Source of the DNA: Pantoea rwandensis
Lineage (GTDB): Bacteria; Pseudomonadota; Gammaproteobacteria; Enterobacterales; Enterobacteriaceae
Direction: 5' to 3'
DNA: 64,000 nt
NCBI RefSeq assembly: GCF_002095475.1
Contig: NZ_MLFR01000027.1
Coordinates: 1-64,000 of the forward strand
Shown here in pieces: positions 160 through 4,232 of this stretch; position 1 is the first letter of the stretch, and each line of letters starts with the position of its first letter. Both the position numbers and the translations under genes were made by a program. Under the pieces are notes generated by a model. It ran no database searches. It worked only from the letters and a program-made list of their open reading frames with translations, and was not told the DNA's origin.

Positions 160-1446
160 TTATTTCAGTAACAGATTGGCGATGGTACGCACGCCAAGAC
201 CGGTCGCACCGGCAGACCACTGATCCACCGCACTTTTGCGATAGGTCGCTGAGCAGTCAATGTGCAGCCAGCCCTGCTGATACTTGCTCACGAAATACGA
301 GAGGAAAGCAGCCGCACTGCTGGCACCCGCCGCATGGGCTGGGCTGGCGATGTTGTTCAGATCGGCAAAGTTAGAGGGCAGATGGCCACGATGGAACTCC
401 GCCAGAGGCAGACGCCAGAAAGCTTCGTTTTCACCGGTTGCACTGCCTAACAGCGATTCCGCCAACACATCATCAAAGGTAAATAGCGCGTGGTAATCGT
501 TACCCAACGCGGTTTTCGCCGCACCGGTCAAGGTCGCCGCATCAATCAGCAACTCTGGATTCTGCTCGCTGGCGTCAATCAGACCATCCGCCAGCACCAG
601 ACGCCCTTCGGCATCGGTGTTCATCACTTCAACGGTTTTGCCATTACGATAGCGAATAATATCGCCAAGACGGAACGCGTTACCGCTGACCATGTTGTCA
701 GCACAACACAGGAAGAGTTTTACACGTTTGGTCAGGCCGCGAGAAATCGCCAGTGCCAGCGCACCCGTGACAGTTGCGGCTCCGCCCATATCGGATTTCA
801 TCGAGTCCATAAAGGCGCTCTGTTTCATGCTGTAGCCGCCAGTATCAAAGGTGATACCTTTGCCAACCAGACAGGCATAAACCGGCGCGTTTTCATCGCC
901 TGTTGGGTTAAAGTCGAGTGCTAACAGCACCGGCGCGCGCGTTGATCCACGGCCTACGGTATGAATACCGGCATAACCTTGCTCGCGCAGATCTTCGCCT
1001 TTGGTAATGCGATAGCTGACGGCATCGCCGCCGACGTCATTGATCAGATCAACCGCACTGTGCGCCAGCTGTTCTGGGCTAAGATCTTCCGCTGGCAGGT
1101 TGATGGTGTCGCGCACCCAATCAACGATCTTCAGGCGACGATCAAATTCTACCTGATCATTTTCGCTGAGTGCTGGCCACGCCACCTGGCGTTTGCCTTT
1201 TGGGCTGCGATAGCCTTGCCAGAAAGCCCAGCACTTCTCCAGATCCCAGTCATCGCCACTCAGTGCAACATGGCGAATACCCTGACCGTCCAGCTTGCGC
1301 CCCGCGCGCTGGATGCTCATCAGCGCATCTGCGCCAGTCAGGTGAATCGTCATGCCATTTTCAGTGCTGCTCAGCAGTGCTTTTTCACCCCAGCGCGCAT
1401 CAGCGGCCTGGGAGCTGAGCGTAATTGTCATCGGTTGTGTTGTCAT
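160..1446 (-). CDS. pepB: Peptidase B, M17 family aminopeptidase
   Basis: Cytosolic leucyl-aminopeptidase-family metallopeptidase that removes N-terminal residues from peptides. The 428-residue product matches E. coli PepB almost end to end. The N-terminal domain covers about residues 1-150 and the catalytic domain about 160-428. The two-metal and active-site segments are visible as [10 protein letters not shown] (195-204) and NTDAEGRL (276-283). A GGAG ribosome site lies 9-10 nt before the chosen ATG. In E. coli pepB is the last gene of the isc cluster after iscX; here it directly follows iscS with a 62-bp gap holding a perfect hairpin, so the intervening isc genes are absent. Confidence 0.97.
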
Positions 1447-1474
1447 CGCGTGGCTCCGTTTGCATTAGGTGTCA

Positions 1475-1498
1475 CCTTGCGCCAGAACCGGCGCAAGG
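1475..1498. repeat. Perfect 9-bp hairpin between iscS and pepB
   Basis: CCTTGCGCC and GGCGCAAGG form a perfect stem with a 6-nt loop in the short iscS-pepB gap. There is no T-run after it on the minus strand, so it is not a standard terminator. It marks the junction where iscU to iscX would be expected. It could stabilise the iscS mRNA 3' end or be a scar of the deletion. Confidence 0.6.
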
Positions 1499-1508
1499 GG
1501 TGCATGAA

Positions 1509-2678
1509 TTAGCGGGATGTCGCGGGCGAAAGTGCCCGCAAACGACTGACCGCTTTGTTGACCAGCTCAATGGCGTAATCAATTTCCTCTTCTGTGGTGA
1601 AACGTCCCAGTGAGAAGCGTAGAGAGCTGTGTGCCAGCTCCTGCTCTACGCCCATGGCACGCAGCACATAAGAGGGTTCAAGACTGGCCGAGGTGCAGGC
1701 AGAACCGGACGACAGCGCCAAATCTTTCAGCGCCATAATCAGCGATTCACCATCAACCTGAGCAAAACTGAGGTTAAGAATGTTCGGTGCGCCCTGCTCC
1801 AGCGAACCGTTGATGTTTACATCAGTCAGTTGGCTGATACCTTGCCACAGACGCTGGCGCAATGCCGCAAGACGCGCCATTTCACTGCTCATCTCTTCAC
1901 GAGCGATACGATACGCCTCGCCCATACCGACGATCTGGTGCACCGGCAAGGTTCCGGAACGCATACCGCGTTCATGGCCGCCACCATGCATCTGAGCATC
2001 AATCTGTAATTTAGGTTTACGACGAACCCACAGCGCACCAATACCTTTTGGGCCGTAAATCTTATGCGCCGAGAACGACATCAAATCCACGGGCAGTTGG
2101 CTGACATCAATCGGCAACTTACCCACACTTTGAGTGGCATCCACGTGGAACAGAATGTCACGCGCGCGGCACAATGCGCCGAACGCTGCGATATCCTGTA
2201 CCACGCCGGTTTCGTTGTTCACATGCATCAGAGAAACCAGCACGGTGTCATCGCGCAGCGCAGCTTCCAGCATCGCGGGCGTGACAATGCCATCACTGCC
2301 GGGTTGCAGATAGGTGACGTCGAAACCTTCACGCTCCAGTTGCTGGCAACTGTCCAGCACTGCTTTATGCTCGGTTTGACTGGTAATGACGTGTTTGCCA
2401 CGCGCTTGATGGAACTGGGCCGCACCTTTAATGGCGAGGTTGTCAGCTTCTGTTGCGCCTGAGGTAAAGACAATTTCACGCGGATCGGCGTTGACCAGCT
2501 CAGCAATTTGATTGCGTGCCACATCAACGGCTTCTTCAGCCTGCCAGCCAAAACGGTGAGAACGGGAAGCGGGGTTACCGAAGGTGCCATCCAAAGTAAG
2601 GAACTGCATCATTTTGGTGGCAACACGCGGATCGGCAGGCGTCGTCGCTGCATAATCCAGGTAGATCGGTAATTTCAT
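1509..2678 (-). CDS. iscS: Cysteine desulfurase IscS, C-terminally truncated
   Basis: PLP enzyme that takes sulfur from L-cysteine and passes it as persulfide to acceptors for Fe-S clusters, tRNA thiolation and thiamine. The 389 residues align with E. coli IscS (404) without gaps up to about residue 385. The PLP lysine is in [10 protein letters not shown] (about K206), and the persulfide cysteine is in [10 protein letters not shown] (about C328). After the shared LSP near residue 385 the E. coli tail is replaced by ATSR and a stop, so about 15 residues that help dock IscU are missing. iscU, iscA, hscB, hscA, fdx and iscX do not follow. The enzyme probably still serves tRNA thiolation, but its classical scaffold partner is not encoded here. 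Confidence 0.95.
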
Positions 2679-2855: not shown

Positions 2856-3353
2856 TTAAGCACGCAGATTGACGTTGATGGTGTCCTGCATACGGTGCTG
2901 CTGGAAGCGACGGTTATCAGCCATATTTTGGCGATCGGCCACATCCAGAATCTCTTGGTTGTTTACCAGCTCAGCCAACGTGATGTTGTTGAGGAATTCG
3001 CTGATACGCTCGCTCAGGTCACGCCACAGAACGTGAGTCAGGCAGCGCTCGCCACCTTGGCAGCCTTCTTTTCCCTGGCACTTGGTGGCATCAACGGATT
3101 CGTCAACAGCGGTAATCACTGCACCAACCGCAATGGCATCAGAGGCTTTACCTAACAGATAACCACCGCCTGGACCACGGACGCTGGCGACTAAACCGTG
3201 CTTACGTAAACGCGAGAATAACTGCTCCAGATAGGAGAGCGAAATGCCCTGACGCTCAGAAATATCAGCCAGCGGCACTGGGCCCTCATTAGAGTGCAGT
3301 GCAACGTCCAGCATAGCGGTTACGGCATAACGTCCTTTGGATGTCAGTCTCAT
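2856..3353 (-). CDS. iscR: Fe-S cluster regulator IscR (Rrf2 family)
   Basis: Winged-helix transcription factor that senses Fe-S status: with a [2Fe-2S] cluster it represses its own promoter, and cluster-free it activates suf-type genes. The product has 165 residues. All cluster ligands are present and correctly spaced: C92, C98, C104 and H107 in the segment [16 protein letters not shown]. The ATG at 3353 is chosen because it gives the family start MRLTSKGRY and has a GAGG ribosome site about 10 nt upstream. Three tandem IscR-box-like repeats precede it. It is oddly complete given that the scaffold genes it normally controls are missing downstream. Confidence 0.97.
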
Positions 3354-3421: not shown

Positions 3422-3496
3422 ATTCCTGAGTAAAACGGTCAACTATTTAACCAAGTAATTTACTCAACTATTTAACCAACTATTTTACTCAACTAT
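3422..3496 (-). promoter_or_regulatory. iscR promoter with three tandem IscR type-1-like boxes
   Basis: Read on the minus strand, a 25-bp unit starting ATAGTTGAGTAAA occurs at 3472-3496 and 3447-3471, nearly identical. A third, diverged unit lies at 3422-3446 (ATAGTTGACC, 5-nt centre, ACTCAGGAAT). The third contains the likely -35 element TTGACC (3437-3442), 17 bp before a weak -10. The units fit the IscR type-1 pattern with half-sites near ATAGTTGAC. The array overlaps the trmJ stop codon (3489-3491). IscR autorepression is known from E. coli; its operation here is inferred. Confidence 0.7.
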
Positions 3497-4232
3497 TACC
3501 CTTATCACCTTTAGGCTTTTGGAACGACGCCAGCATGCCACGCAGAATGTTCAATTCATCACGTTCAGGGCGCGCACGGGTATAGAGACGTCGCAGTTTG
3601 CTCATCACCTGGCTTGGCGTACCTTCACGGATAAAGCCGCTGTCCAACATCATCTTTTCAATGTGCTGATAGAAGCGCTCCAGATCGTCCACCAAAGGAT
3701 AAGGGGACTCTTCTTCTTGCGGCTGAGGGTCGGCCTTTTCCTGCGCCTCCAGCCATGCCATACGCACTTCGTAAGCGATGATCTGCACCGCCATGGCCAG
3801 ATTCAGTGAGCTGTATTCTGGGTTAGCCTGAATCGCCACGTGATAGTGGCACTTCTGCAACTCTTCATTGGTCAGGCCAACGCGTTCACGACCAAAGACT
3901 AAGGCAACCGGTGCCTGCTGGCCCTCTTCCACGCTTTTGATACCGCACTCGCGAGAATCAAGCATTGGCCATGGGAGTGAACGTGAACGTGCGCTGGTGC
4001 CCACCACTAAACTACAACCGGCGATAGCCTCATCCAGCGTATCAACAATTTTTGCCTCACCAATCACATCGCTGGCACCCGCAGCAAGAGAGATAGCTTG
4101 TGAATCAGGCTTCACCAGCGGATTGACCAGATAAAGGTTGGTTAAGCCCATGGTTTTCATGGCACGGGCCACAGAACCCATGTTGCCAGTGTGCGAGGTT
4201 TCTACCAGTACGATTCGGATGTTATGCAGCAT
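3489..4232 (-). CDS. trmJ: tRNA (cytidine/uridine-32-2'-O)-methyltransferase
   Basis: SPOUT-family methyltransferase that modifies the ribose of position 32 in certain tRNAs using S-adenosylmethionine. The 247-residue protein begins [19 protein letters not shown], as in E. coli TrmJ (246 residues). An upstream extension of the frame is not supported by homology, so the start is placed at 4232. The SPOUT segment VFGRERVGL and the [10 protein letters not shown] motif are present. The last codons GGT AAT AGT TGA lie within the upstream IscR box array. It is divergent from suhB. Confidence 0.95.

Follow-up and report, generated by a model that had tools for sequence, protein, structure and literature searches.

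A reduced isc locus and decay of IscS docking sites in Pantoea rwandensis and other enteric bacteria that carry SUF

The 64,000-nucleotide stretch of Pantoea rwandensis DNA analyzed here (positions 1 to 64,000 of contig NZ_MLFR01000027.1; hereafter, the window) carries on its minus strand a reduced isc locus, named for the ISC system of iron-sulfur (Fe-S) cluster assembly, in the order iscR, iscS, pepB (Table 1). By comparison, the E. coli locus has iscS-iscU-iscA-hscB-hscA-fdx-iscX between iscR and pepB, and of these seven intervening genes, iscS alone remains. The three window genes were all identified at the NCBIfam equivalog level, with iscS exceeding the curated cutoffs of both TIGR02006 (679 bits versus 643.2) and NF010611 (699.6 versus 548). 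The spacing of C92, C98, C104, and H107 of IscR, which we take to be cluster ligands, equals that in E. coli, and a tblastn search of the gaps with the E. coli proteins returned no remnant of the six missing proteins in the window junction. An earlier note on this DNA had described the ISC locus as reduced to iscR-iscS, with 62 bp from the iscS stop to the pepB start, and the coordinates of the open reading frames (ORFs) bear this out; the note had also read IscS as ending in ATSR after about residue 385, in agreement with replacement of the 404-aa consensus from residue 386 on. Its statement that the lost tail aids IscU docking agrees with the finding that deletion of residues 376 to 404 of E. 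coli IscS abolishes IscU binding (PMC2854127; papers are cited by PubMed Central number, each for the part of its text available to us).

Table 1. Features of the isc region of the window
Feature	Coordinates	Strand	Identification or remark
pepB	160..1446	-	NCBIfam NF003450, 763 bits; ORF list; E. coli counterpart follows iscX
iscS-pepB junction, 62 bp	1447..1508		Site of the missing iscUA-hscBA-fdx-iscX
9-bp perfect inverted repeat inside the junction	1475..1498		No function assigned
Final four iscS codons (ATSR)	1512..1523	-	Replace conserved tail 386 to 404 (E. coli numbering)
iscS, group I cysteine desulfurase, 389 aa	1509..2678	-	ORF; NCBIfam equivalog; tail missing, catalytic residues and TusA face intact
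iscR, 165 aa	2856..3353	-	ATG start at 3353; NCBIfam equivalog level
A+T-rich repeats upstream of iscR	3427..3500	-	Possible IscR sites, by resemblance only

The perfect 9-bp hairpin reported in the earlier note exists (arms at 1475-1483 and 1490-1498, separated by 6 nucleotides) but has no evident meaning. Because the terminator scan listed no terminator-like site within 1447-1508 and the predicted fold is unremarkable (z = -1.49 for a 70-nt stretch, with 15 of 200 shuffles equally stable), we give it no weight, and a functional hairpin in the junction was dropped as a candidate. The repeats upstream of iscR form a tandem 25-nt unit, part of which is similar to the sequence preceding E. coli iscR (AAATAGTTGACC...TTACTC.GGAATG.CAGACT), and this resemblance makes self-regulation of iscR plausible in the window's lineage.

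The losses extend beyond the locus. The window's genome is a 5.78-Mb draft in 69 contigs with a completeness of 100, and the search for the missing genes elsewhere, which the earlier note had proposed, recovered neither IscU (no PF01592 match on any contig) nor HscA (none over the curated cutoff genome-wide; best match, 626.5 bits versus 708.55); for hscB, fdx, and iscX the search covered the locus, where all three are absent. The proposed coordinated loss of scaffold, chaperone, and IscS tail holds as far as sequence can test it. CyaY is likewise missing, with no PF01491 match anywhere in the genome. There are three matches to A-type proteins, one of which lies beside suf and none of which scores like an isc-operon IscA, and one TusA-family protein is encoded. 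A complete sufABCDSE operon, in order, is present on another contig (contig 24; L184), its ORFs being 124, 497, 248, 451, 407, and 138 aa long; SufB and SufD were identified by PF01458 and SufA by PF01521, and SufC, SufS, and SufE are presumed from gene order and likeness. So far as sequence can speak to the matter, the note's suggestion that SUF supplies the clusters is in keeping with this complete operon.

The reduced state is shared by many relatives (family and order are used here in the GTDB sense, wider than NCBI's, such that the family takes in Erwiniaceae and Yersiniaceae, and Alteromonadaceae-like families fall within the order). Among the named iscS loci, which are the best 80 of 575 confirmed stretches, the iscU-fdx block is absent beside iscS in 17, and in all 17 IscS is aberrant, with a length of 383 to 399 aa; the other 63 proteins, like that of E. 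coli, have 402 to 404 aa. Seventeen ISC-less genomes were searched whole, consisting of the window's and 16 named ones (L002 is outside this set), and 16 of them contain no match to the IscU family. The exception is a Pantoea metagenome-assembled genome (L003; G395), whose PF01592 match at contig 22:219977-220336 falls in a 280-aa frame, a length that presumably indicates a NifU-type protein rather than IscU; this match could represent nitrogen-fixation genes or contamination. SufB/SufD matches occur in all 17 genomes (L016 has only one), and HscA exceeds its cutoff in 0/17, versus 6/6 ISC-bearing genomes.

Across the family, the pattern extends to a set of 139 genomes in which each genus is represented once. 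Of these, 85 have IscU, 126 have IscS (at E <= 1e-150), and 107 have SufB/D. SUF is present in all but one of the 54 genomes that lack IscU (53/54), the exception being a 0.2-Mb genome that is also the sole one lacking both, and in 54 of the 85 genomes with IscU, leaving 31 IscU-bearing genomes without SUF. The IscS match reaches residue 401 or beyond in 83/85 genomes with IscU versus 1/41 without it, and that single IscU-less case (G466) is 404 aa long with a scrambled tail, reading SPEWETANMGVDAACITSGHH. By this cross-table and by the independent-pairs test described below, the association of tail and IscU lies well outside what chance would give.

Several individual genomes show other arrangements. 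Hafnia alvei (L009), Serratia microhaemolytica (L011), and Tatumella morbirosei (L015) display the opposite loss, keeping isc and having no SufB/SufD match. In genus g49 of family f7 (L191 to L193), the position that iscU would occupy, immediately after iscR-iscS, holds matches to SufB, C, D, S, A, and E; this is a second gene arrangement, unlike the Pantoea type, with the same outcome. Contig 4 of the IscU-less genome G031 encodes two IscS-like proteins (1862224-1863366 and 2091334-2092479), which are 66% and 61% identical to E. coli IscS.

The frataxin gene cyaY lies outside the isc locus and was compared, together with TusA, in 40 genomes picked by ISC state. It is present in 0/28 ISC-less versus 12/12 ISC-bearing genomes; a TusA-family protein is encoded in 27/28 and 12/12, respectively. 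According to PMC4440780, every cyaY-bearing genome also had iscU, a rule upheld in the 40 genomes here; what differs from that account, in its available text, is that the joint loss occurs here in several lineages of a single family, with matching drift in IscS.

To IscS itself we applied a site table comparing 32 ISC-less rows of the family (window included) with 81 ISC-bearing rows, with the caution that alignment rows are not independent; altogether, 54 ISC-less IscS rows were aligned, of which 22 are outside the site percentages, 3 of these being second copies from counted genomes. Nine tail sites (384-387, 389, 393, 395, 401, and 404) are conserved in at least 95% of the 81 IscU-bearing rows, and the window's IscS keeps two, 384 and 385. 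The tail serves docking and does not define the enzyme family. The note's claim of retained desulfurase activity is consistent with the part of it that residues can address: the PLP lysine K206, the active-site cysteine C328, and the active-site histidine H104 are kept in 32/32 ISC-less rows, which would allow activity. TusA binding requires W45, E49, and D52 of E. coli IscS (PMC2854127); these three TusA-facing residues, along with R39, are conserved in 100% of the ISC-less rows, and D65 is conserved in 97%.

Residues that serve the ISC partners fare differently from the TusA face, and the extent of decay must be widened from the tail, as the earlier note had it, to the docking residues for Fdx, CyaY, and IscX and to the unlinked cyaY. 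In E. coli, IscU contacts the C-terminal helix 379-391, Glu309-Ala316, and Glu347 of IscS, and CyaY and IscX are affected at R116, R220, R223, R225/E227, G234, R237/M239, A327, and R340 (PMC2854127); Fdx does not bind to R220E/R223E/R225E and binds more weakly to R112E/R116E (PMC3750173); and IscX cross-links to K92, K93, or K95 and, at a second site, to K101 (PMC5801593). In the ISC-less rows, conservation falls at the tail sites and at R112 (3%), K101 (3%), Y90 (9%), D346 (25%), F89 (28%), E227 (34%), E309 (44%), K95 (50%), R116 and R223 (53% each), and R225 and K93 (59% each); R220, G234, R237, and M239 remain at 100%, R340 at 91%, and E347 at 78%. R220 contacts TusA and matters for ThiI in E. 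coli (PMC2854127), a possible reason for its persistence where R223 and R225 have drifted. Residues 1-375 contain 210 sites conserved across 95% or more of the ISC-bearing rows, and 18 of these sites are relaxed; 9/18 are among the 21 positions with a published ISC-partner role (hypergeometric p = 5e-6, a descriptive value because some of the positions were gathered once the relaxed-site list was already known), and 0/4 TusA positions are relaxed.

How often the change occurred was estimated from two phylogenies. The first, based on SuhB, TrmJ, IscR, and PepB (66 rows), yields 5 state changes, at least 3 of which are forced by supported branches, and 3/3 independent pairs in agreement (p = 0.25). 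Because three pairs are too few to support a conclusion, sampling was widened by genomes from two further families and by some symbionts, and the tree was rebuilt. This second tree (78 rows) gives 10 changes, at least 8 of them forced (bootstrap range, 8 to 11), and decay of the IscS tail tracks the loss of IscU in 8/8 independent pairs (p = 0.0078), a tail being scored as intact when all nine invariant tail sites are present. Its data include IscS residues 1-375 minus the 18 relaxed sites, and several of its branches are long; the count of 8 is therefore a supported estimate and not a certainty. As for sampling, the 17 added IscU-bearing rows have mostly low IscS identity and were taken as those nearest to the ISC-less rows; the f7 and f12 rows are those with listed coordinates; a chosen part of the earlier rows was used; loci with fewer than 3 usable markers were dropped before counting (6 in the first set, 3 in the second); and L147, L151, L152, L159, and L200 were left out of the second tree beforehand. 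The suggestion in the earlier note that the state is shared by the whole clade stands for the window's genus, in which all 4 sampled genomes (the window's and 3 others) lack IscU, but not as a single event, given at least 8 state changes on the wider tree.

The explanation that we consider highly probable is that SUF took over cluster assembly, that genes needed only for ISC were lost, and that IscS was kept mainly as a sulfur donor to TusA while its other docking sites drifted. An ancestor would have held both ISC and SUF, and once SUF had become the only machine for Fe-S assembly in the window's lineage, the genes that work solely with the IscU scaffold, namely the locus genes iscUA-hscBA-fdx-iscX and cyaY, located elsewhere, would have been dispensed with. 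IscS would have been retained to pass sulfur via TusA to tRNA thiolation and the molybdenum cofactor, and probably also to ThiI; the conserved TusA face and the retained TusA point to the first two of these as the reason that IscS stays. With the partners gone, the sites that docked them would have drifted (the IscU tail, R112/R116 for Fdx, R223/R225/E227 for CyaY and IscX, and the IscX lysines to K101), and the TusA face and active site would have remained under selection. The same course would have been followed independently several times among enteric bacteria and neighboring families. The absences, presences, residue patterns, and repeated association are observed; from them we infer the order of events, relaxed selection as their cause, and what IscS and IscR still do. 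IscR was plausibly kept as a cluster sensor for suf, and the slower growth of an iscR deletion mutant of Pantoea stewartii (PMC8882988), whose locus (L010) shares the reduced arrangement, suggests that it still matters.

Two other accounts would undercut the observation of loss itself. That the window's arrangement is an artefact of assembly or annotation is scarcely credible, even though the genome is a 69-contig draft: its completeness is 100, with no IscU on any contig; the junction in a separate isolate, Erwinia sp. S63 (L001), equals that of the window in all but one of 65 bases compared; seven Pantoea loci (L002 to L007 and L010) share the gene order, with gaps of 60 to 173 bp (65 in the window on the same measure); and one of these (L006) is from a finished P. 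agglomerans chromosome. We therefore exclude the assembly collapse contemplated in the earlier note, since the L001 junction matches and the state recurs in many genomes. Change counts on an unrooted tree are blind to gain versus loss, and so the common ancestor could in principle have been without ISC, with the ISC-bearing lineages gaining the operon; this too is very improbable. Between iscS and pepB of one ISC-less locus (L175; G369), there is a remnant of iscX with stops (E 2e-9), and weak 3' fragments of iscX (E 4e-4 to 5e-3) are present in 5 loci of one other lineage; G443 has weak iscU and fdx fragments. At least the remnant-bearing lineages therefore lost ISC. Moreover, the iscR-iscS...pepB synteny is the same in ISC-less loci, and IscU occurs in 364/394 genomes of the order sample.

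Two further accounts accept the loss and read the decay of IscS differently. A deletion spanning iscU to iscX could also have removed the 3' end of iscS mechanically, in which case the missing tail would be uninformative about selection, and the short gaps and abrupt new ends in the window and P. dispersa are such as a deletion breakpoint gives. We nevertheless regard this as unlikely, as IscS proteins of near-original length have scrambled tails in G466 (404 aa), G517 (405 aa), and G430 (398 aa), as decay has also occurred far from any breakpoint at K101, R112, R223, and R225 and in the unlinked cyaY, and as G090, a genome of another family, lacks iscU and yet has an almost intact tail. Rather less likely still is that the altered surface is an adaptation for feeding sulfur directly into SUF and not simple relaxation: the suf set directly downstream of iscR-iscS in genus g49 would suit such rewiring, but the window's genome has both SufS and SufE, and the new tails differ from lineage to lineage, as drift would predict more readily than would a shared new contact.

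Several observations weigh against SUF takeover followed by relaxed selection on IscS. The tail of IscU-less G090 retains 8/9 sites, and counting it as intact under a looser rule leaves at most 7/8 pairs in agreement. Two of the 85 IscU-bearing family genomes lack a full tail match, although one is a broken match (G496) and the other (G435) a genome of 49% completeness with inner stops, and the Fisher p of the IscU/tail cross-table ignores relatedness, which inflates it, so that we use the test as description only. The IscU-contact stretch 310-316 shows no drift in ISC-less rows, and F89, R116, and R223 have drifted although they affect ThiI binding in E. coli (PMC2854127). Outside partner sites, the core of ISC-less IscS diverges from that of E. 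coli by 20%, versus 10% for ISC-bearing IscS, and part of the drift is therefore general, ISC-less IscS evolving faster overall. Drift is also weaker in 19 further ISC-less rows from small-genome symbionts and other families, where a manual count finds K101 kept in 11/19 and R112 in 7/19; W45, E49, and D52 are kept there in 19/19, R39 in 16/19, and D65 in 18/19. Finally, Y90, Y123, I166, E285, V322, L342, and E363 have drifted, and we saw no published partner role for them. Positions 90, 123, 166, 285, 322, and 363, each kept in 95% or more of ISC-bearing rows, are, in their own right, candidates for unrecognized ISC contacts.

The broader proposition, that enteric bacteria and their neighbors passed from ISC plus SUF to SUF alone at least eight times, each time dismantling the operon, the frataxin gene, and the IscS docking residues and sparing the TusA face, strikes us as somewhat likelier to be right than wrong; its frataxin component was tested within the family, and its SUF component by a genome-wide search covering some but not all of the added genomes, with G090 and the f12 and f17 genomes that lack IscU outside it.

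The window's locus resembles that of E. coli in its iscR-iscS order, trmJ and suhB upstream, pepB downstream, catalytic residues, and TusA face and differs in lacking iscUA-hscBA-fdx-iscX at the locus and cyaY in the genome; relative to E. coli IscS (PMC2854127), the IscU-binding tail and the Fdx, CyaY, and IscX residues are changed. A lone iscS beside SUF is a known kind of arrangement. In Mycobacterium tuberculosis, the isc operon is reduced to iscS beside a complete SUF system (PMC10848736 and PMC8300815), and the likeness lies in SUF as the main system and the lone iscS; that lineage is unrelated and has a sufRBDCSUT operon, whereas the window also keeps iscR and has close ISC-bearing relatives for comparison. 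Most bacteria carry one Fe-S system, usually SUF, as the window's lineage appears to do, and in E. coli ISC serves housekeeping and SUF stress, Enterobacteriaceae being described as dual-system (PMC11559095); against that picture, as the available text presents it, single-system states arise repeatedly within and around Enterobacteriaceae here. A literature search (titles and abstract beginnings of the top results) found no description of ISC loss in Pantoea, Erwinia, or Rahnella, nor did we find an earlier account in which Enterobacteriaceae and their neighbors lose ISC repeatedly and the IscS surface and cyaY decay in step; this is no proof of novelty.

Common plant- and insect-associated relatives of E. 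coli carry SUF alone, and as other relatives have ISC and no SufB/SufD match, the two systems appear able to replace each other within short spans of evolution. The repeated losses support the view of frataxin as an ISC accessory in bacteria, allow the assignment of IscS residues to partners to be read from sequence, and open the limits of what SUF can supply to direct genetic testing. If the eightfold switch is true, these lineages would amount to a natural mutagenesis marking the IscS residues that serve ISC partners alone, including sites without a known role (Y90, Y123, I166, E285, V322, and E363), and SUF would suffice as the sole assembly system for enteric bacteria.

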